From positions 1 to 38,427 of IMG/VR virus record IMGVR_UViG_3300009091_000032: DNA of 38,427 bases. One strand, written 5' to 3'. Positions 2,508 through 24,915 of this stretch are shown piece by piece. Numbering within the stretch: the first letter of the stretch is position 1; the number at the start of each line of letters is the position of its first letter. Origin of the DNA: a virus. Both the position numbers and the translations under genes were made by a program. A model generated the notes under the pieces. That model had not been told where the DNA came from and ran no database searches. It worked only from the letters and a program-made list of their open reading frames with translations.

Positions 2508-5249
2508 GTGGCCCTTGAGGACCTCTTCGACCGGGGTTGTGCTCGCTGCGGGCTTTCTGCCAATGCCCGCACGGTCTGCCTCGGCAACCGGGGACAGGAG
2601 GAGCAGCCTCTCCTCGTGCTGTTCGGGGAGAGCCCCGGCAAGGACGAGGACTCCTTCGGCCAGCCCTTCGTGGGCCGGGCCGGCCAACTGCTCGACAAGC
2701 TGCTGGAGCAGGCCGGGGTGGACCCCCAGCGGGTGATGTGGACCAACGCGGTCCGGTGCTTCGCCCAGACGGCTCAGGGCACGCCACGGCAGCCCACGGA
2801 CGGAGAAGTCTCCGCCTGCCTGCTCTACACCTACCGGCTGCTCGAACGGCTCCTGGCGGTCAACCCGGCCCATCCCCCGCTGCTGGTGGCCTTGGGCAAC
2901 ACGGCCTTGAAGGCCCTGACGGGCAAGGGGGCGATCACCCGCAACCGCGGCCTCGAGTTCCCCTTGGCCGTCCACCCGTCCTATCGGCGGGAGTTCGAGC
3001 ACCTGAACGGCTGCTTCCAGGTGGTTGGGACGATCCACCCCTCGGCGGCTCTGCGGACCGAGTCCTACGCTCCCTCGATCGTGGCGGACCTCGCCCGGAT
3101 CTGGCGCCGGGTGACGGGCCAGTTCGAGGACCGGTACTGGGACCAGTACATCTGGGTCAACGACCCCCAGATCTTCGCCGGCTTCGTCGACGAGGCGATT
3201 CTCCAGTACCGGGCCGGAGAGATCCCGTGGGTGGCCTACGACCTCGAGACGACCGGCCTGAACGTCTACGACCGGTCCCACAAGACGGTCTGCTTCTCGG
3301 TCTCGAAGGGGCCCAAGCAGGCCTTGGTCGTCCCGCTCTGGCACCAGGACTCCCCGTGGAAGGAGGACCGGTTCATCCAGGACCGGATCCTCTCCGACTT
3401 GGGCCGCCTGCTCGCTACGGTGCCGGTCTGCGGCTGGAACCTCTCTTTCGACATCAAGTGGTCCCTGTTGCATCTGGGGGTCCAGATCCGGGAGATCGGG
3501 CTCGACGGGTTCCTCGCCCGCAAGTGGATGAACTCCTCGAAGACGATCTCGAACGACCTGAACACGGCGGCCGAGGGCGAGCTCGGATTCATCGGCCACG
3601 GCCTCGAGATGAAGCCCTTCACCAAGTCGGTCACCGGGGAGGCGGGCAACCGCATGCACGACTGCCCGAGCGACAAGATGCTGCGCTACTCGGGCGGTGA
3701 CGCGGATGCTTCCTTCCAACTCTGCGTCCGCTACCGGGACAAGCTGGCCGAGATCGACTCGCTGGAGAACTTCTCGACCCTGATCCTCAAGGGCATGCTC
3801 CCGGTGTGCCGGATGGAGATCGCCGGGGTCGCGGTCAACCCGGCCACGACGGCGTACCTGATGGAGCTCTATCCCAAGGAGATGGAGCCCCACATCCAAG
3901 CGGTCGAGCAGACCGAGTGGGGCCGCAAGACCAAGGCGTGGCTGGCGGCCCGGATCGACGAGCGGGGCAAGCCCGCCCCCTTGGAGTTCAACCTGCGCTC
4001 GCCGCAGACCCTGCAGCGGCTGCTCTACCACGAGATGAGCCTGCCCGTCGTCGCGCAGGGCAAGAGCGGCCCGTCTTCCGCCAAGGAGTCGCTCGAGGAC
4101 CTGATCGAGATCTGCAACGACCGGGGCTGGCCGGATCGCCGGGAGGTGCTCGAGCACCTCAACGAGTGGCGCACCTTGGCCCACACGTTCAGCAACTTCG
4201 TCAAGAAGATGTCCGAGCACACGGCGGCGGACGGCTTCTTCCACACGAACTACAACATCATCGGCACGGTCACGGGCCGGTTCTCCTCCTCGGACCCCTC
4301 GATCCACACCCAGCCCAAGGGCTCGAAGGCTCGCTGGCAGTTCGTCTCCCGCTGGGCCAAGCAGGGCGGCCTGATCGTCTCGGCCGACATGAAGCAGATG
4401 GAGATGCGGGTACTCGCCGCCCTCTCCCAGGACGCGAACCTGTGCCAGACGATCCTCTCGGGCGTGGACATCCACACCGCCAACGCCGCCCAGATGTTCG
4501 GGGTGCCCCACTCCGCCGTGACCAAGGAGCAGCGCCAGATCGCCAAGACGCTGGGCTTCGCGGTCGTCTACGGGTCGGGCCCCGGCAACTTGGCGGCCCA
4601 ACTCGAGATCTCCAAGGACCGGGCCCAAGGGATCATCGACAACTGGTATCAGACCTTCCCGGGGACCTTGGAGTACCAGCGCTCGGAGTACAAGATGGCC
4701 GTCAAGTACGGCTGCGTGACCACGGACTTCGGGCGGATCATCTGGATCCCGGACATCACGACTTCCCGTTGGGGCGACCGGGCGTGGCGGCAGGCCATCA
4801 ATGCCCGCATTCAGAGCACCGCGAGCGACACGACCCTGATGGCTCTCCTGGAGGTCGACGCCGAGATCCTCGCCAGGGGCCTCCGCTCGAAGCTGTTCGG
4901 CTTCGTGCACGACGCGATTCTGGTCGACGTGGCCCCCGGAGAGTTGCTGGATATTCTTGACATACAGAAAACCAAGATGGTAGATTGGATCAACCATGAG
5001 TTCGTCGGTTGGCTCAAGGAAATCCCAGTGGTCAGCGACATCGAGTTGTGCCCCGGCTGGGGCTTCCCGTGCTCCTTGGTCGAGCGCAACGGGCAACGTC
5101 TCGTGGTGGAGAGTTCCGTGATGCACGGGACCCTCTTGCTCTCCGAGTTGAGGCACCTGCACGCTGAGATCGTCGAACAGAAGGTCGAGGGAGACAAGAT
5201 GCTGATCGACTTCGTTCTGCCCTCGATGGCTGCCCAGGGGGTCGCGTGA
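2508..5249 (+). CDS. DNA polymerase A with N-terminal family-4 uracil-DNA glycosylase domain
   Basis: 913 residues from GTG 2508, in three parts. Residues 1-200 resemble family-4 uracil-DNA glycosylases: motif GESPG at 40-44, PFVGRAG at 53-59, HPS near 180, and four cysteines (C11, C14, C84, C104) placed as in the iron-sulphur type. A DnaQ-like 3'-5' proofreading exonuclease follows, with Asp245 and Glu247 in AYDLETTG. The C-terminal half is a family A polymerase: motif A with Asp627 (SADMKQMEMR), motif B near 676 (RQIAKTLGFAVVYG) and motif C HD at 801-802 (FVHDAILVDV). Glycosylase/polymerase fusions are known from SPO1-type phages. This enzyme should be the replicative polymerase. The glycosylase part may remove or sense uracil in the template. 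The arrangement is continuous, with no frameshift. Confidence 0.93.
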   Translation: MALEDLFDRGCARCGLSANARTVCLGNRGQEEQPLLVLFGESPGKDEDSFGQPFVGRAGQLLDKLLEQAGVDPQRVMWTNAVRCFAQTAQGTPRQPTDGEVSACLLYTYRLLERLLAVNPAHPPLLVALGNTALKALTGKGAITRNRGLEFPLAVHPSYRREFEHLNGCFQVVGTIHPSAALRTESYAPSIVADLARIWRRVTGQFEDRYWDQYIWVNDPQIFAGFVDEAILQYRAGEIPWVAYDLETTGLNVYDRSHKTVCFSVSKGPKQALVVPLWHQDSPWKEDRFIQDRILSDLGRLLATVPVCGWNLSFDIKWSLLHLGVQIREIGLDGFLARKWMNSSKTISNDLNTAAEGELGFIGHGLEMKPFTKSVTGEAGNRMHDCPSDKMLRYSGGDADASFQLCVRYRDKLAEIDSLENFSTLILKGMLPVCRMEIAGVAVNPATTAYLMELYPKEMEPHIQAVEQTEWGRKTKAWLAARIDERGKPAPLEFNLRSPQTLQRLLYHEMSLPVVAQGKSGPSSAKESLEDLIEICNDRGWPDRREVLEHLNEWRTLAHTFSNFVKKMSEHTAADGFFHTNYNIIGTVTGRFSSSDPSIHTQPKGSKARWQFVSRWAKQGGLIVSADMKQMEMRVLAALSQDANLCQTILSGVDIHTANAAQMFGVPHSAVTKEQRQIAKTLGFAVVYGSGPGNLAAQLEISKDRAQGIIDNWYQTFPGTLEYQRSEYKMAVKYGCVTTDFGRIIWIPDITTSRWGDRAWRQAINARIQSTASDTTLMALLEVDAEILARGLRSKLFGFVHDAILVDVAPGELLDILDIQKTKMVDWINHEFVGWLKEIPVVSDIELCPGWGFPCSLVERNGQRLVVESSVMHGTLLLSELRHLHAEIVEQKVEGDKMLIDFVLPSMAAQGVA

Positions 5250-11383: not shown

Positions 11384-14300
11384 ATGCAGATTCTGGCGAC
11401 GGGGGATCTACATATTTCGCCCTTCGGCGAATTTTCCCGTAGTCTCGATGCAGAAGGCCTCACCTCTCTCGCCCGGCGGCACATCGAGACCGCCAAGTGG
11501 ATCCGCACTCTCTTCCGCAAGACCAGATCCGAACTGCTGCTGCTCAACGGGGACCTGACTTCGATCCCCGGCCGGCTCGATGCGCCGACGATCAAGCTGT
11601 TGGAGTTGGTCGAGCGCGAGTGGGCCGACGTGCCCCGCGTGGTCAACGTAGGCAACCACGATCTCTCGATCAAGGTCGGGCTGCACAACCTGCACCTGCA
11701 CTCTCTCCTAGCTGGGGTCCACGTCGTGGACGAGCCCGTCTACCAGACGGGCAACCTTTGGGTCGTCCCCTACACCTACACGCTCGAGGAGCAGCAGCTC
11801 GTCCTCTCGACGATCCCGGACGGCGCGGTCGTGGCGATCCACTACCCCCTCTTGGGGGCCCAGATGACGCCCCAGATCGCCGAGGGCTCCGGGCTCGAGA
11901 TGGACGAGCTCCTCCGGTTCCGGTTCGTCATCGCCTCCCACTACCACCTGCCCCAGGTCCGCACGGGCTCCACGGGGATCGTGCTGGGCTCCGAGATGAT
12001 CGGCCACATCCCGCCGGGCTCGGTCGTGGTCACCGGGACCCCGATGCCCCACTCCTTCGCGGATACCGGCGAGGCCTACGGGGTCTGGTTCCTCGACACG
12101 GAGACAGGAGAGAGCGAGTTCTTCGTCAATCCGCACGCCCCGGTCTACGTCTCGGAGACCGTCCGGACGATGGGCGAGGCCGCCGAGGTCCTGAACCGCC
12201 ACCCCAGCCGGGAGACCTTCTTCTCGCTGACCGCGCCCAAGGACATCGCCGACCGGCTGCCCAAGGAGCCCAACCTCAGGATTCGTCGTACAAGGCCCGA
12301 ATCGGCCTCGGGGCTGCCCCGGGTACGGGTCCAGTCCGAATCCCCGGTCTGGCCCAACCTGGTGGCCTACGCCGCCCACGCCAAGCTCGACCTCGACTGC
12401 AACGCGGCCGAGGAGATGCTCGCTCCCATGATCGCCGAGATCACGGCCCAGACGAACACGGGCCCGATCAGCTTCACCCGGCTCCAGATCAAGGACTTCA
12501 TGTCGTGGGGCGAGGCGGATCTCGACCTGACGGGTTCCGGGCTCGTGCTGGTCTCGGGCACCAACCACGACACCTCGACGGCCAGTTCGAACGGCTCGGG
12601 CAAGTCGAGCCTGCTCGAGGCCATCGCCTTCGCCCTCTACGGCTCGACCTTCCGCAGCTTCGAGACGAAGGACAAGGTGGTCCGCTCGGGCGCTGTGACC
12701 TCACATGTGACGGTCACGCTGGTCACGCGGGAGGGAGAGTTCGAAGTTTCCCGCTCCCGAAAGGCCAAGGGCGGGGCCTCCGTGTCCCTGCGCAAGCGCG
12801 ACGGGGACCGCTGGGTGGACATCTCCCGCGGCTCGGCTCCGGGCACCGACCAAGCCATCGTCGAGACCTTCGGGCTGGACGCCGAGACCTTCTCGACCCT
12901 GGCCTTCTTCGGCAGCCGGTACGGCAACCAGTTCTCCCTGATGGGCGATGCCGACCGCAAGCGGTTCCTCGGGGCCGTCCTGGGGATCTCCCAGTACGAG
13001 GCCCTGCGCGCCAAGCTGCGGGACCGGCTCGGGGCCCTGACTAAGGAGTTCGCGGCCTTGGACGCGAGCCTCAAGGCCCAGTTGAGGACCTTGGAGCAAC
13101 TCGAAGGACAGGTGGCCTCCGAGCAGGACTCGATTGCCGAGCGCAAGAAGGAAGGCCAACTCCTCCAGCGCGAACTTTCCGGAAAGATCAGAGTCTGGAA
13201 GGCCGAATCCAAGGGGATCAACGAAAAGATCGAGGCGGTCACGGCCCAAGAGGCCACGATCCGGGAGGGCTTGGCCGGCCTCGTGGATCCCGCGCCCCAG
13301 ATCGAGTCCCTGCAGCGCGAGGCGGACTCCTACGGGGCCCAGATCACCCGGCTGGAGAAGGACATCGAGCGGGGCCGGAAAGACCTCGCAGCGGCCCAGC
13401 GGGACCTCGCCGAGGCCCAGTTCCTCTGCCCGACCTGCGGTCAGGAGTTGCCCGAGGTGGGCAAGGAGGAGATCCGCTCCAAGTTGTTCGGCACCATCAA
13501 GGCCACGGCCGAGCGCGGGGTCGGCCTCCAGGCCCAACTGGCCGAGCAGCGGGATCTTCGGCAGGCTCGCCTCGGGGACCTCGAGGCCCTGCGGGCCAAG
13601 ACGGGCGGTCTCCAAGCCCAGCGGGAGGCTCTCAACGACCAGTTGCGCGAGGTGGTCGCCGAGCGGGCCCGCCTGCGCGGGGCGGACGGGCACCTGACGA
13701 ACGAGATCGCCCAAGCTGAGGCCCAAGTCGCCGAGTTGAAGGGCCGCGACTACGAAGCGGCCCTGCGGCGGCTCGAGGGGGTCCTCGCCACCACTCGCAA
13801 GGGGGCCCAAGACCTGACGGCCCAAGTCGACGAGTTGTCGGGCAAGGTGGGTCTCGCCCAGCAACTCGACCGCATGCTCTCGCCCCAAGGGGTCGTGTCC
13901 TACCTGCTCGATTCGGCCCTCTCCTCGCTCAACTCCTACCTCGACTACCTGTCCGGCCCGATCTTCGGGGGCGACTACGCGATCGCCCTCGACTCGACCC
14001 GCGAGTTGGCCAAGGGCGGGGAGGAGAACCGGATCTCGATCCGGTACTCGACACCGGCGGGTTCCTACTCCGCCTCCTCGGACGGGGAGAGGCGGAAGGC
14101 TGACCTGGCAATCTTTCTCGCTGTGAACTTCTTGGCGGGTGCTCAAGGGATGGGCTGCCCGTCGTTGGCGGTGTTGGACGAGGCCCTGGACTCGCTCGAT
14201 GCGGTGGCTGCTCGCGCCGTCGTCGAGGCGGTGGACCGTTTCGCTACCGAAGAGGGTCGCAGGGTGTTCCTCGTGTCCCACTCTCCCGATGTCGTCGTCT

Positions 14301-14407
14301 GGGTGGGCGAAGAGTTGCGGGTCGAGAAGCGCTCGGGGGTTTCGTTGCTCGTCCGGGAGCCAGGCGAGTCCGCGAACGAGACCTCCGAGGTCCACTCGGT
14401 GGCTTGA
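11384..14407 (+). CDS. SbcD-SbcC (Mre11-Rad50) fusion nuclease/ATPase
   Basis: 1007 residues in one frame. Residues 1-330 are a SbcD/Mre11-type metallophosphoesterase: GDLH at 7-10, NGD at 55-57, GNHD at 90-93, IHYP, and ASHYH in place of the usual GHxH. Residues 365-1007 are SbcC/Rad50: Walker A GSGKSS at 404-409 followed by LLEAIAFALYG, two long coiled coils flanking a zinc hook CPTC at 682-685, an ABC signature SDGERRKADL at 899-908, Walker B with Asp932-Glu933 (LAVLDEALDSLD) and SHS. In T4 and bacteria the two halves are separate genes (gp47/gp46, sbcD/sbcC). Here every catalytic motif of both is in one polypeptide. It should process DNA ends for recombination together with UvsX. Confidence 0.93.
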   Translation: MQILATGDLHISPFGEFSRSLDAEGLTSLARRHIETAKWIRTLFRKTRSELLLLNGDLTSIPGRLDAPTIKLLELVEREWADVPRVVNVGNHDLSIKVGLHNLHLHSLLAGVHVVDEPVYQTGNLWVVPYTYTLEEQQLVLSTIPDGAVVAIHYPLLGAQMTPQIAEGSGLEMDELLRFRFVIASHYHLPQVRTGSTGIVLGSEMIGHIPPGSVVVTGTPMPHSFADTGEAYGVWFLDTETGESEFFVNPHAPVYVSETVRTMGEAAEVLNRHPSRETFFSLTAPKDIADRLPKEPNLRIRRTRPESASGLPRVRVQSESPVWPNLVAYAAHAKLDLDCNAAEEMLAPMIAEITAQTNTGPISFTRLQIKDFMSWGEADLDLTGSGLVLVSGTNHDTSTASSNGSGKSSLLEAIAFALYGSTFRSFETKDKVVRSGAVTSHVTVTLVTREGEFEVSRSRKAKGGASVSLRKRDGDRWVDISRGSAPGTDQAIVETFGLDAETFSTLAFFGSRYGNQFSLMGDADRKRFLGAVLGISQYEALRAKLRDRLGALTKEFAALDASLKAQLRTLEQLEGQVASEQDSIAERKKEGQLLQRELSGKIRVWKAESKGINEKIEAVTAQEATIREGLAGLVDPAPQIESLQREADSYGAQITRLEKDIERGRKDLAAAQRDLAEAQFLCPTCGQELPEVGKEEIRSKLFGTIKATAERGVGLQAQLAEQRDLRQARLGDLEALRAKTGGLQAQREALNDQLREVVAERARLRGADGHLTNEIAQAEAQVAELKGRDYEAALRRLEGVLATTRKGAQDLTAQVDELSGKVGLAQQLDRMLSPQGVVSYLLDSALSSLNSYLDYLSGPIFGGDYAIALDSTRELAKGGEENRISIRYSTPAGSYSASSDGERRKADLAIFLAVNFLAGAQGMGCPSLAVLDEALDSLDAVAARAVVEAVDRFATEEGRRVFLVSHSPDVVVWVGEELRVEKRSGVSLLVREPGESANETSEVHSVA

Positions 14408-15786: not shown

Positions 15787-16541
15787 AGATCTCGGAGGAG
15801 TCCCCGCTCCGGAAGCGCCAGAACCGCAAGAAGGCCTCGGCCAAGGCGAAGAAAGCGAGAAAAGCGAAAGAAGTCGTGGAGACCGCCCTCGCCGTGATCC
15901 AGCCCAAGATCCTCTTCGACGAGCCCGGGCCCGGGGGCTCGCCCGCTCCGGCCCAAGCGGAGAGGGGCCCAGCGGAGAGGAAGCCGGCGGAACTCTCGGA
16001 GTACCAGAAGCAGGGGACGGCGGGCCTCGAGTTGGCCCGGGACTTTGCCCTCACGATCGGCAAGGCCGACGAGCAACTCACCCAGCGGGTCAACGAGGTC
16101 CTCCTTTCGGACAGCAAGCTCAAGATCCATGTCGCATCCATCGCGTTCAGTCGAAAGTACATCGAGTCGATCGTCTCCATGCTGGGGGTCCTCGACAAGA
16201 TCGAGGCGGAGATCGCGAAGCTGGAGTTCCACAAGATGGAGGGTCCGGAGTTGGCGGCCTACCACCAGTTGGTGACCAACCGGATCGAGCTCATGCTCCG
16301 CTTCCTCCTGGCCTTGGCCGCGCTCGAGCCCCTGGAGCGGATCGAGCCAACCATCATCCCCGAGGAGGTTGCGGTCGAGTTGGCCAAGCGGGTGGGCCCG
16401 GAGATCGAGAACCTGCCGGTCGCCGCTCGGCGCAAGGTCGTGTCGATCATGGACCGGATCAACAGCCGGCCCGCCGTGGTAGAGGCCTTGGCCGCCCAGG
16501 CCGAGTCGGCTGAGCAGGGGCATGGAACCGACGCCGGGTAA
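15783..16541 (+). CDS. Hypothetical protein upstream of terminase, candidate small terminase
   Basis: 252 residues from ATG 15783, overlapping the preceding stop. The first 30 residues are extremely basic (many Lys and Arg), followed by a Pro/Ala/Glu linker and an all-alpha domain from about residue 70 with long amphipathic helices (SIVSMLGVLDKIEAEIAKL, RIELMLRFLLALAAL). The stop lies 20 bases inside the large terminase gene. A basic N-terminus, helical core and position next to the large subunit fit a small terminase subunit, but no family signature is seen, so this stays a proposal based on context. Confidence 0.55.
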   Translation: MKISEESPLRKRQNRKKASAKAKKARKAKEVVETALAVIQPKILFDEPGPGGSPAPAQAERGPAERKPAELSEYQKQGTAGLELARDFALTIGKADEQLTQRVNEVLLSDSKLKIHVASIAFSRKYIESIVSMLGVLDKIEAEIAKLEFHKMEGPELAAYHQLVTNRIELMLRFLLALAALEPLERIEPTIIPEEVAVELAKRVGPEIENLPVAARRKVVSIMDRINSRPAVVEALAAQAESAEQGHGTDAG

Positions 16542-21547: not shown

Positions 21548-22387
21548 ATGTCCGAGGGACTGTTCCGCCTTCTGATCGAGCAGCTCAGCGCCCGTCTCGA
21601 CGAGACCTCCAAGTCGATCGGTCACCTGCGGGGCGGTCCGACCGAGGTGCCCCAGGAGCTCGGCCAGAAGGGCCATCCGTACTACCCGGTCCGGGGCTCG
21701 GTCCGCCATGGCTACCTGACGATCCGGGGCCAGTACCGGAAGGCGTTGGCCGACCTCGTCACGGCCTACACGAAGAACCGCAAGACGATGCCGTTCGCTC
21801 GGGTCAAGGAGCAGACCCAAGCCATCATCCGGTCCTACTTCGAGAAGGCCTACCGCTACGGGATGCTGGACCGGGCGGGCCTGTCGACGAGCCCGAGGAA
21901 AGGGTTCTCGCTCACGCAGTCCCAGTACCAGTGGTTGGCCAAGGCCGCGAGCGAGGAGTTCGGCTACTTCCAGCGGCTCCTCGATGACGTGCGCTACAAC
22001 CGCAGCAAGATGCACTACCTCGCCCGCATCGACAACTACGCCCTGAGCCTCGATCCGATCTACGACGCGGGCCGAGTCTCGGTGCTCCCGCAGGAGGCCG
22101 GGCACTTCCTGGCCGACTGGGTCATGGACTACGAGGCCGAGCACTGCCCCTCGTGCCTGTGGCTGGCCAACCACTCTCCTTGGGTGCCGGAGAACCTGCC
22201 CACGACCCCCAGGGCCGGGGCCACCCTCTGCATGGTGGGCTGCAAGTGCAAGGTCGTCCTCCGGCGGGTCTCAGAGGAGGAGTACAAGTCGGCCCTCAAG
22301 GCCCAGACCCCGAAGAAGCAGGCCCTCTGGCATCTCAACCGCCTGCAGCAGAGAAAGCACGGAACCCGCCGGGCCCGCCGGACCTGA
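21548..22387 (+). CDS. MuF-like head morphogenesis protein
   Basis: 279 residues from ATG 21548. The first half is helical. The C-terminal region carries the cysteine pattern of the phage Mu F/SPP1 gp7 family: EHCPSCLWLANHSPWVPENL, LPTTPRAG, then CMVGCKCKVVL. These minor head proteins bind the portal and enter the prohead early. Location two genes after the portal fits. The end of the protein is basic (RKHGTRRARR). This is the last gene before the long non-coding stretch. No scaffold, protease or capsid gene follows, as would normally be expected. Confidence 0.75.
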   Translation: MSEGLFRLLIEQLSARLDETSKSIGHLRGGPTEVPQELGQKGHPYYPVRGSVRHGYLTIRGQYRKALADLVTAYTKNRKTMPFARVKEQTQAIIRSYFEKAYRYGMLDRAGLSTSPRKGFSLTQSQYQWLAKAASEEFGYFQRLLDDVRYNRSKMHYLARIDNYALSLDPIYDAGRVSVLPQEAGHFLADWVMDYEAEHCPSCLWLANHSPWVPENLPTTPRAGATLCMVGCKCKVVLRRVSEEEYKSALKAQTPKKQALWHLNRLQQRKHGTRRARRT

Positions 22388-22393
22388 GTCGGC

Positions 22394-22423
22394 TTGACAG
22401 TTGCTTGGCATCCCTGCTAGTTT
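22394..22423 (+). promoter_or_regulatory. Sigma-70-type promoter for the long structured RNA
   Basis: TTGACA at 22394-22399 is followed after 15 bases by TGCTAGTTT, giving a -35 box and an extended -10 (TAGTTT at 22418-22423, spacing 18; or CTAGTT with spacing 17). Three further sites in the window share the pattern TTGACAG-N13-TGCTA. The predicted start is near 22430, just upstream of the helix that closes the RNA. Confidence 0.7.
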
Positions 22424-22707
22424 CACCCCAACGATCTTGGCTGTTTGACAACTGAGGCGGAACAGAGTTCAAGGATTCGAAACCCGCAGTGAGGCACGCC
22501 CTCTCGACGGTGAGCGGTTGTCGACTCTCGCTCCTCGTGACGCTGCGGCTTGACGGTTGAGACGACCAGGGACTACTCAGACCCCTGAACCGCTTTCCGG
22601 TAGGCCGGTACCGGATAGCTCGACCAGGCGCAAGGCACCGCTTGGCCGGGTGAAACCTATTGGGACGAGGCGAACGCCGGGTAGCCCAACTGCCGACTCG
22701 GCTCTGT

Positions 22708-22783
22708 TGCGGGGTGGAGCAGCTAGCAGCTCGCCTGGTTCATACCCAGGAGGTCAGGGGTGCGAATCCCCTCCCCGCTACCA
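22708..22783 (+). tRNA. tRNA-Met (CAT), initiator-like
   Basis: A complete cloverleaf of 76 bases including an encoded CCA. Acceptor strands 22708-22714 and 22773-22779 pair at six of seven positions, with a T-T mismatch at 1-72. D stem GAGC/GCTC, anticodon stem CCTGG/CCAGG with loop TTCATAC (anticodon CAT), T stem AGGGG/CCCCT. The 1-72 mismatch and A11-T24 pair are initiator features, and the 5' half GCGGGGTGGAGCAGC matches bacterial initiator tRNA. The three G-C pairs expected at the base of the anticodon stem are only two here, and the T loop reads TGCGAAT. It lies inside the long structured RNA, so it must either be cut out or stay as a domain. Confidence 0.88.
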
Positions 22784-22791
22784 TGCTTCAT

Positions 22792-23106
22792 CGAACCTCG
22801 ATGCCCCTGCGGAGAGGGCTTACCTCCGTGATCGAAAGAGGTCGGGTGCATGCAGGGGCTAAGTCACCCGAGTACGCTAAGGGAGAGATCGAAATAGCTT
22901 GGTAGGAGTTTCTGCTGACCCGCAGAAGGGCGCGTGGGCGGTCTCCGTCCACCATGACAACCCCCAACGCGGAAGCGGAAGAGCGCCGAATTGACGGCAC
23001 GATAGGCGGTGCGCGCGGTGGGGACGAAGAGTAACCAAGCTGATACGTCCCTGCACAGGAATCCGAGTCGAATGTGCGCGAAACACTCCCCGAGCATCGA
23101 GGTTCG
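22792..23106 (+). ncRNA. RNA domain closed by a 12-bp helix, with two predicted pseudoknots
   Basis: CGAACCTCGATG at 22792-22803 is exactly complementary to 23095-23106 and a TTTTT run follows directly. First pseudoknot: 22803-22810 pairs with 22852-22859 (GCCCCTGC), and the loop segment CGGGTG 22843-22848 pairs with CACCCG 22865-22870 outside it. Second: hairpin 23021-23026 with 23046-23051 (GGGACG), whose loop bases 23034-23041 (ACCAAGCT) pair with 22896-22903. Hairpin 22934-22952 lies between. It begins eight bases after the tRNA. The T run could also mark a partial termination site. Confidence 0.62.
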
Positions 23107-23184
23107 TTTTTAGTCTCGCCTGCCATGCGCAGGAGGAGCGTTCGGGGCCGTCCTCGCGGGCGGCTCTAGCCAGAGGGAAAACTG

Positions 23185-23317
23185 GAGCAGGTGTTACGCA
23201 CCGTAAGCGAGGTGCACGACCGTGGGGTGCGTTGGTAGGTGTGCCACGGCCTCAGCCCAAGAGCAACTGGGGCGAAGGGGACCAACGCGAGCCGGTGAGA
23301 TCCCGGCACACCTGCTT
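23185..23317 (+). ncRNA. RNA domain with an 8-bp pseudoknot
   Basis: GCAGGTGT 23187-23194 pairs with 23308-23315, extended by two pairs to 23185 and 23317. Within it, hairpin CCGTGG 23220-23225 with 23244-23249 has a loop whose bases GCGTTGGT 23229-23236 pair perfectly with ACCAACGC 23281-23288 beyond the hairpin, forming a pseudoknot. A further hairpin at 23291-23307 (GCCGG/CCGGC) completes the domain. Confidence 0.55.
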
Positions 23318-23392
23318 CGGTAGTTCGAAGAGTCCGTGACTGCCAGAGCCGCTAGCGGCTCGTTCCGGGCGACGGCCTGGAGGCAGACGCAA

Positions 23393-23428
23393 CCCTGCAC
23401 CGAGATTCCCCTAGGGGTCGGTGCAGGG
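23393..23428 (+). ncRNA. Strong 11-bp hairpin within the structured RNA
   Basis: CCCTGCACCGA (23393-23403) pairs exactly with 23418-23428. The 14-base loop contains CCCCTAGGGG, a self-complementary sequence that could make a loop-loop contact between RNA copies. The nearby GAGCCG-CTAG-CGGCTC hairpin at 23346-23361 also exposes CTAG. No T run follows, so it is not a terminator. Confidence 0.55.
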
Positions 23429-23712
23429 GATTGAGTTGATCCCCATCGGACACGCCGCAAGGCCTCAGGTGGGGTTTGGACAGTGTGGGTACGGCAGGCG
23501 CTCACCACCGAACGACGATGGAGCCAAGAGGGGGCCAGCACTCTCAAGGAATCTCCTAGTCCGCGGTCCCAAGCGCGCGTTGGGCTGGATTCCAGCGTGA
23601 AGTCTGCTGGTTGGTCATGGGTCATCAGAATGGTCTGTTGATCCACAGTTGGAGTCGAGAGATCAACCGGCGGTCGGAGCCGTTCCAACACCGACACCAA
23701 TTCGTGAATTGG

Positions 23713-23895
23713 CCTCAGCACCTCTGGGAACAACCCCACTGCGGAAGGACGCAGACCGCGCCAACACCTGGAACAGATGGGCAGTTAGTACCGGAGTCAT
23801 GACCGCGAAGCCTGCCCAATGTTTAGCGGGTCGGAGCAAACCAGGAGATAGAGCTCCAGCCGGAATCAAGCCCGGCGGGCCTGGGGGTGCTGAGG
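23713..23895 (+). ncRNA. RNA domain closed by a 10-bp helix
   Basis: CCTCAGCACC 23713-23722 is exactly complementary to 23886-23895. Inside are TGGGCAG 23778-23784 with 23812-23818, CCTGG 23766-23770 with 23841-23845 and GCCGG 23859-23863 with 23872-23876. Just upstream, CCAATT-CGTG-AATTGG (23697-23712) and GTTGATC 23637-23643 with 23661-23667 form further hairpins. The domain ends shortly before the tRNA-like element. Confidence 0.52.
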
Positions 23896-23912
23896 TCAGT
23901 TCATGGTTCATG

Positions 23913-23989
23913 GGTAGGGGTAGCTCAGTTGGGAGAGCAGCCGCGAGGTGATCTCGCTGCCTACGCCGGTTCAAATCCGGCCCCCTGCC
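23913..23989 (+). tRNA. tRNA-like element with histidine-tRNA features (anticodon arm atypical)
   Basis: Acceptor 23914-23920 pairs with 23982-23988 (one T-G wobble). T8-A9, D stem GCTC/GAGC with loop AGTTGGGA, and T stem GCCGG/CCGGC with loop TTCAAAT are all canonical. G at -1 and C at 73 are hallmarks of tRNA-His, and GTGAT occurs where a GTG anticodon is expected. However, the anticodon arm is three bases too long: it pairs best as GCGAG/CTCGC with only a five-base loop, or as GCAGC/GCTGC with a large loop. No CCA is encoded (CGC follows). It may be a diverged tRNA or a mimic that ends the large RNA. Confidence 0.5.
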
Positions 23990-24040
23990 CGCTCCGCCTC
24001 AGTGTCTTCCCCTCCACTCTTTCCCTCCGCCTCGGGGTAC

Positions 24041-24069
24041 TTGACAGATTGGAACTCCCTTGCTAAGGT
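24041..24069 (+). promoter_or_regulatory. Sigma-70-type promoter of the Ku gene
   Basis: TTGACA at 24041-24046, 17-base spacing, and extended -10 TGC-TAAGGT (24064-24069). The predicted start near 24076 leaves a short leader with ribosome site AAAGGAGG before GTG 24097. The Ku gene thus seems to have its own early-type promoter, separate from the RNA upstream. Confidence 0.72.
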
Positions 24070-24096
24070 AGCCGAGCAGTCGAAAGGAGGCTCTCG

Positions 24097-24915
24097 GTGA
24101 CCCAGGAGAAGGCGAGCGAACCCAAGGCTGTGACCTACAAGGCCACTCTCAAGACGGTCCTTTCCTGCGGGGAGATGTCGATCCCCGTGAAGCTCTACAA
24201 GGCCACCGAGAGCCACGACATCGAACTCCACCAAGTCCACGCCGAGTGCGGCACCCGGCTGCGCCAGCAGGACCTGTACTGCCCGTTCTGCACCGTCGCC
24301 CGCCGCACCGAGCAGGGGGACAACACGCTCCCGGTCGTCGCGGTCGCCAAGGAAGACGCGGTCAAGGGCTACGAGTACGAGAGCGGCCTGATCGTGACGC
24401 TCACCGAGGAAGAGATCGAGTCGACCCAGCCCGAGAAGGTCGTGGGGATCCAGATCGAGCGGATCCTCCCGGAGTACGACATCGATCCCATCTTCTACAC
24501 CGGAGAGGTCTCGTTCGTCGGCCCGGACAAGGGCGGGGAGACGGGCCTCTCGCTGCTCGCCCGGTCGCTGCGCATGTCCCGGGCCATGGCCATCGGTCGC
24601 CTCGTCGAGCGGGGCCGGTCCAAGGTGCTGGCGATCCGCACGATGTGGCTCGGATCCGGGGAGCGCCATCTTGCGGTGGTGGCTCAGGTGATGCGCTACG
24701 CGGGCGATGTCCGCGACCCGATGGCGGTCGTCGGCTCGTTGAAGCCGACCCCGGACGAGGCCGTCGCGGACTTCTCGGAGATGCTGGCGAAGGTGCCCCA
24801 CGAGACCTTCGCCCTGTCGAAGTACGAAGACCCGGTCCGCGCCAAGCTGCTCGAACTGATCGAGACGAAGAAGAAGGCCCTCGTCGAGGCGAGGGAGACC
24901 TCGGAGGTCTCGTGA
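24097..24915 (+). CDS. ku: Ku-like DNA end-binding protein
   Basis: 272 residues from GTG 24097. It matches bacterial Ku along its length: TLKTVLSCGEMSIPVKLYKATESHD, a core HQVHAECGTRLRQQDLYCPFC with three cysteines, VKGYEYESGLIVTLTEEEIE, IDPIFYTGEVSFVGPDKG, then a helical region RAMAIGRLVERG and QVMRYAGDVRDP. Ku rings thread onto DNA ends and recruit a ligase for end joining. Phage Ku proteins in mycobacteriophages Omega and Corndog help circularise the genome with host LigD. No ligase is seen in this window, so host LigD or a gene elsewhere would be needed. (In the quoted motifs the runs are as seen in the sequence.). Confidence 0.9.
   Translation: MTQEKASEPKAVTYKATLKTVLSCGEMSIPVKLYKATESHDIELHQVHAECGTRLRQQDLYCPFCTVARRTEQGDNTLPVVAVAKEDAVKGYEYESGLIVTLTEEEIESTQPEKVVGIQIERILPEYDIDPIFYTGEVSFVGPDKGGETGLSLLARSLRMSRAMAIGRLVERGRSKVLAIRTMWLGSGERHLAVVAQVMRYAGDVRDPMAVVGSLKPTPDEAVADFSEMLAKVPHETFALSKYEDPVRAKLLELIETKKKALVEARETSEVS

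Follow-up and report, generated by a model that had tools for sequence, protein, structure and literature searches.

A candidate structured, modular RNA from a phage tRNA island with two recurring pseudoknots

A 1.7-kb gap between two genes of a tailed phage is best read as encoding a structured, modular RNA of phage tRNA islands, which is comparable to GOLLD and ROOL but unrelated to them and, judged by its sequence, represents a new family. The region is noncoding and strongly folded and lies in a conserved slot; of its two pseudoknots, M2 is kept by paired changes and M1 is nearly unchanged. Since both pseudoknots are found again in other phages, where their base changes match, the region would be a new kind of phage RNA rather than an artefact.

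The noncoding gap and its folding

The window, i.e., the whole stretch of DNA analysed, is an entire IMG/VR virus record of 38,427 bases. Its gene content is that of a tailed phage and includes a primase, a DNA polymerase A with a UDG domain, an SbcD/SbcC fusion, a T4-type portal, and a Ku-like protein. Two of these genes are fusions: at 2508-5249, a Uracil-DNA-glycosylase domain is joined to the family A DNA polymerase (Pfam UDG and DNA_pol_A), and at 11384-14407, SbcD-like and SbcC-like parts form one protein of 1007 aa, a fusion that also occurs in the related phage L028 described below. The gap (22388-24096) separates the gene at 21548-22387 from the Ku gene starting at 24097. Its borders and promoters, all on the + strand, are:

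21548-22387, +, upstream gene (phrog_24776), left border of the slot; its homologue borders the slot in L028
22394-22423, +, RNA promoter, TTGACA-N18-TAGTTT with an extended TGCTA
22430-24010, +, predicted noncoding RNA, 5' end placed by the promoter and 3' end by the end helix
24041-24069, +, second promoter, for the Ku gene, TTGACAG..TGCTA motif
24097-24915, +, Ku-like gene (PF02735), right border of the slot; homologue at G005:C17 126482

The GC content by codon phase is flat within the gap (0.56/0.63/0.66), whereas the genes on either side show strong periodicity (e.g., 0.61/0.45/0.93), and the longest open frame on either strand has at most 196 codons. This flatness beside periodic neighbours agrees with a preliminary description of the region, which had found no protein gene here and had placed a consensus promoter at 22394, where TTGACA-N18-TAGTTT indeed opens the gap. 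The stricter motif TTGACAG..TGCTA has four copies in the window, with 0.00-0.09 expected, all of them on the + strand and between genes: at 22394 (5' end of the RNA), 24041 (just before Ku), 37446, and 37726. The promoters at 22394 and 24041 would thus provide the gap with its own transcription start and the Ku gene with another.

The folded elements outside the two pseudoknots are the following:

22447-22461, +, 5' strand of the predicted end helix P1, pairing with 23993-24006 (p 0.95-0.99)
22708-22783, +, initiator-like tRNA-Met (CAT), found by ARAGORN, Rfam 55 bits, CCA encoded
22792-23106, +, domain II, closed by a perfect 13-bp helix (22792-22804/23094-23106)
23331-23485, +, strongly folded module for which no relative was found
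23702-23906, +, module closed by a near-perfect 27-bp helix (23702-23728/23880-23906, p 0.97)
23914-23990, +, tRNA-like element in the predicted fold, 40.5 bits as tRNA
23993-24006, +, 3' strand of the predicted end helix P1

The two tRNA elements correspond to the initiator-like tRNA and the tRNA-like element noted previously. In the tRNA-Met, 1:72 is unpaired and A11:U24 is present, both initiator-type features. The tRNA-like element has an extended acceptor of 9 bp, lacks CCA, and carries a 5-nt loop where the anticodon loop would be; it sits directly inside P1. The joiner CGTTTTTAGT follows domain II.

Compared with shuffled sequences, the fold energy reaches a z of -4.5 for 22430-24010 and -5.4 for 22784-23913, and the + strand outfolds the - strand. 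P1 consists of 3 bp (22447-22449/24004-24006) and 11 bp (22451-22461/23993-24003), and 11 bp between the ends were reached in 2 of 2000 shuffles of both ends. The pairing of the ends over 11, or 14, bases and the perfect inner helices, both part of the preliminary description, are therefore found again. Most of the signal is carried by local folding, with z values of -4.1 for 23176-23330, -5.5 for 23331-23485, and -6.2 for 23702-23906, while the extra energy gained by pairing between modules was smaller than for shuffled modules (z +4.9). The gap is thus described as a chain of folded modules with ends possibly fastened by P1, and not as a single tightly interwoven fold. The end helix is above chance, but the earlier reading of the entire stretch as a single fold is not well supported, as the modules fold alone and do not pair with one another above shuffles.

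These results bear on the alternative of a single integrated giant RNA that P1 would close and that would act, like GOLLD and ROOL, as a scaffold or multi-copy cage, the tRNA being a linker insert as in some GOLLD RNAs. The end helix above chance and the tRNA-like element directly within P1 suit such an RNA, as does the precedent of GOLLD and ROOL, phage RNAs near tRNA islands that form cages and of which GOLLD can hold tRNAs in its linkers (PMC12286853). On our analysis this alternative is nevertheless rather unlikely, given the lack of excess inter-module pairing and the separation of the modules by tRNAs in the relatives, where the pieces have no mutual complementarity.

The shared slot and the pseudoknots in related phages

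Scanning bacterial and archaeal genomes by portal alignment yielded one close relative, L028 (JAHEYD010000003.1, 140,594 bp), a phage contig within a MAG named Candidatus Nitrosotalea nzgw12, with a portal 46% alike. Its gene order is that of the window: SbcCD, a homologue of the gene at 16522 (57%), the portal, a homologue of the gene at 21548, the slot, and Ku. The slot of L028 measures 15.7 kb (110725-126482) and contains 25 tRNAs detected by ARAGORN, along with noncoding pieces and protein genes, HNH endonucleases among them. It begins with the promoter TACTTGACAGATT, comparable to the promoter before Ku in the window. An additional CAT tRNA missed by ARAGORN (L028 15426-15500) follows the first piece, in the same place as in the window. 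After it come a helix-closed domain and the joiner CGTTTTGTAGT (cf. CGTTTTTAGT in the window) and, further on, a piece with M2 and a piece with M1; the order of CAT tRNA, helix-closed domain, M2, and M1 is common to both phages.

A third phage, L038 (= L040 = L043), has 136 kb, 27 tRNAs, and a portal merely 24% alike. M1 occurs there between tRNA-Pro and tRNA-Val, and other pieces also lie between tRNAs, several of them closed by a long helix of up to 23 bp. M1 and M2 are the only parts that can be aligned between phages; for the remaining modules, homology is argued from where they lie. At L035 474-905, a tRNA gene is apparently interrupted by an insert in which an HNH-like ORF and a tRNA-Phe lie.

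Complementarity between the pieces of L028 and L038 did not exceed that of shuffles. The idea of one giant RNA, as first proposed, is thus weakened in two related phages, where tRNAs and genes part the modules. A variant would treat the giant RNA as one assembly whose modules, freed by tRNA excision in the relatives, assemble in trans like fragmented rRNA around M1 and M2 as a conserved, perhaps catalytic, core; with no complementarity between pieces to support it, this variant appears improbable.

Other searches returned little beyond these phages. Portal scanning of IMG/VR gave only relatives at 40%, which lacked the RNA, and scanning it with one protein at a time (Ku, the product of the upstream gene, or the DNA polymerase) yielded no relatives. 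In blastn searches against INPHARED and PLSDB (50,697 phage and 72,556 plasmid records), the tRNA part alone was matched. Several known phages, namely Elanor and DoCa5 of Xanthomonas, Caulobacter phages, and Wakanda, have a similar tRNA-fMet but were rejected, as the RNA is absent outside the tRNA. A 16-mer guessed from domain II (AGRGAGATCGAAATAG) had 16 matches, all of which were due to chance by context and alignment. As a separate observation, Elanor (L022 3793-4667) and DoCa5 (L023 1471-2031) carry an unannotated tRNA-fMet in noncoding gaps of 875 and 561 nt, respectively, after the terminase; the stretches preceding it are similar by eye and may harbour another structured RNA.

The preliminary description predicted three pseudoknots without giving their positions; related sequences support two pseudoknots, which are located as follows:

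23181-23321, +, M2 module, closed by a 14-bp helix
23217-23288, +, M2 pseudoknot, with stem A 23220-23225/23244-23249 and stem B 23229-23236/23281-23288
23629-23695, +, M1 pseudoknot, 89% identity to L028 and 81% to L038

M2 was found in four sequence groups: the window, L028 (18006-18089), L046/L051/L055, and L049. Stem A reads CCGUGG/CCACGG in the window and CCGUAG/CUACGG in L028, and stem B reads GCGUUGGU/ACCAACGC in the window, CGGAAAG/CUUUCCG in L028, and GCUGGAA/UUCCAGC in L046. When related phages were compared for compensatory changes, a check put forward in the preliminary description, all 39 of 39 cells (100%) paired across three groups of M2 and 8 of 13 pairs showed two-sided changes, a result equalled by none of 500 shuffles. 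This covariation was lost when a strand was slid out of register. A model built from three sequences picked up the held-out L049 with 60.6 bits (E 7e-12). Further matches to the M2 pattern (L044, L045, L047, L048, L050, L052-L054, and L056) were dismissed as chance or unsupported, and among 100 genomes around the MAG holding L028, the phage contig alone matched.

M1 is common to three phages, with E values of 4e-20 for L028 and 2e-12 for L038, and matches to its model are confined to these two and the window. It is formed by the stems S1 (23637-23643/23661-23667) and S2 (23648-23653/23684-23689) and an inner hairpin (23668-23671/23679-23682). S1 is GUUGAUC/GAUCAAC, with GUUGAAA/UUUCAAC as its counterpart in L038, S2 is GUUGGA/UCCAAC, and the inner hairpin is CGGC/GCCG, which becomes CGCC/GGCG in L038. 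In the alignment, 96% of cells pair, and three pairs have two-sided changes, which 24 of 500 shuffles equalled; with three sequences to compare, the covariation of M1 is suggestive. The minimum-energy fold of M1 deviates from these conserved pairs. Pattern matches in L036, L037, L039, L041, and L042 were attributed to chance because the conserved flank was missing.

Conservation of this kind speaks to the possibility that the region is a decaying tRNA island, consisting of functionless remnants of lost tRNAs and spacers. The tRNA-like element ('tRNA-His') without a proper anticodon loop and the presence of 25 tRNAs in the slot of the relative versus one in the window would fit such decay. It is, however, a most unlikely explanation: the modules fold strongly over several hundred bases, the pseudoknots are kept by compensation, with the covariation of M2 already speaking against decay, and 28 consecutive bases of M1 are identical between the window and L028, phages whose portals are less than half alike.

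Outside the slot, M2 also occurs alone, at L046 2487-2553 and at L049 5173-5239 (- strand), between genes in unrelated contigs. In both cases it ends approximately 20-25 nt upstream of the start codon of the same uncharacterised 174-aa gene, and it is a possible leader element there; L049 has a tRNA-like match just upstream of M2. This position would favour M1 and M2 as cis-regulatory elements (riboswitch or leader) that were absorbed into a longer transcript. In the window and in L028, on the other hand, M2 is followed by tRNAs or other modules and by no gene, and a cis-regulatory origin is considered very unlikely.

Comparison with known RNA families

When the gap was compared with all 4227 Rfam families, also at E<=10 with lax filters, just the two tRNAs rose above noise. 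The models of OLE and HEARO, as part of this search, had no match in the window, nor did GOLLD (RF02032) at E<=10, direct search included. ROOL (RF03087) had no match in the window either, in a direct search that gave no positive in any control genome. No tmRNA, including permuted forms, was matched in the window, while the same kind of search detected one in the Caulobacter phage CcrBL9 (L025 3424-3729), where an unannotated permuted tmRNA scores 73 bits. The covariance models suggested earlier for checking the region (GOLLD, ROOL, OLE, HEARO, and tmRNA) thus leave it unmatched, with the ROOL direct search lacking a positive control, and the RNA is longer than any of these five. Overall, the earlier interpretation holds as far as a structured phage RNA outside these models is concerned, while its single fold is not well supported.

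The RNA resembles GOLLD in being a large, ornate RNA of phages that lies near tRNAs or contains them, also downstream of tRNA-Met (PMC12286853), and like GOLLD it is located at or around tRNAs. It differs from GOLLD in being about twice as long, in having other motifs, and in that its relatives are split by many tRNAs. With ROOL it shares a large structured form, tRNA islands, and pseudoknots, but ROOL has a length of approximately 0.6 kb compared to 1.58 kb for the window RNA. A limited look through the open literature yielded no split-up relatives for other ornate phage RNAs of tRNA islands.

Among ribozymes, HDV-like theta ribozymes adjoin the 3' ends of phage tRNAs (PMC10879173). M1 and M2 resemble them as structured RNAs among phage tRNAs and in their strand order (stem 1, stem 2, stem 1', hairpin, stem 2'). 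Neither M1 nor M2 has the nested P1-P2-P3 pseudoknot of the theta type with a catalytic C at the start of J4/2; they lack P3 because just about 7 nt separate the second 5' strand from the first 3' strand. Theta cleavage sites lie at most 5 nt from a tRNA 3' end, whereas in L028 and L038 the starts of M1 and M2 are some 20 bases or more away from the closest preceding tRNA end, and in the window this distance amounts to hundreds of bases. No HDV-family Rfam match was obtained in the window. Without P3 and without this position at a tRNA end, M1 and M2 are not classed as HDV-like ribozymes despite their strand order. One match to the Pistol ribozyme (RF02679) lies in the homologous tRNA island of the relative (L034 13102-13162, 36.8 bits, above the gathering score); the window has none, and M1 and M2 fail the model.

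The ribozymes raise the question of whether the modules serve the processing of a phage tRNA array, in which they would set the tRNAs apart and mature them, either as self-cleaving ribozymes or as structured spacers. Such a role is consistent with the Pistol match in the relative's island, the theta ribozymes known beside phage tRNAs, the HDV-like strand order of the predicted pseudoknots, and the location of the L028 and L038 pieces directly between tRNAs. The missing HDV-type P3 hairpin, the starts away from tRNA 3' ends, the absence of any Rfam ribozyme match in the window, and the ratio in the window of more than 1 kb of modules to a single real tRNA argue against it, and we regard it as a minor possibility.

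Proposed function and significance

The explanation we tentatively prefer, with a confidence somewhat short of even, is a long noncoding RNA of a phage tRNA island that has its own promoter and self-folding modules acting on a conserved partner. The noncoding sequence with its own promoter, the folding of the whole and of three modules, the synteny of the slot, the covariation of M2 and its held-out match in L049, the presence of M1 in three phages, and the like layout in L038 support it. Counting against it are the small number of two-sided changes in M1, the restriction of alignable sequence to M1 and M2, and the lone M2 upstream of a gene in L046 and L049, which suits a cis-acting element too. 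The transcript would start from its own promoter, and its modules, most of them closed by a helix, are predicted to fold on their own. The tRNA would be cut out by host RNase P and tRNA 3' enzymes, and the helix-closed modules may then withstand decay and persist as stable RNAs, which would be the working product. M1 and M2, with loops that are conserved nearly base for base, would bind a conserved partner. This would most likely belong to the translation or tRNA machinery; for GOLLD, ribosome binding in pull-downs has been reported (PMC12286853). In the window phage the modules would remain joined, while those of the relatives are separated by tRNAs and homing-endonuclease genes.

If read correctly, the region adds a distinct ornate RNA to a short list. 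To our knowledge, only a small number of large ornate RNAs come from phages, and the function of each is still unsettled. The phages compared here would offer a natural experiment, with a single RNA of 1.58 kb in one phage versus modules spaced by tRNAs and homing-endonuclease genes in its relatives. The two pseudoknots are small and well defined, each with a conserved core in approximately 70 nt; M2 also recurs alone elsewhere, and both are amenable to binding and cleavage assays. Ornate RNAs would thereby be tied more closely to the tRNA islands of phages.
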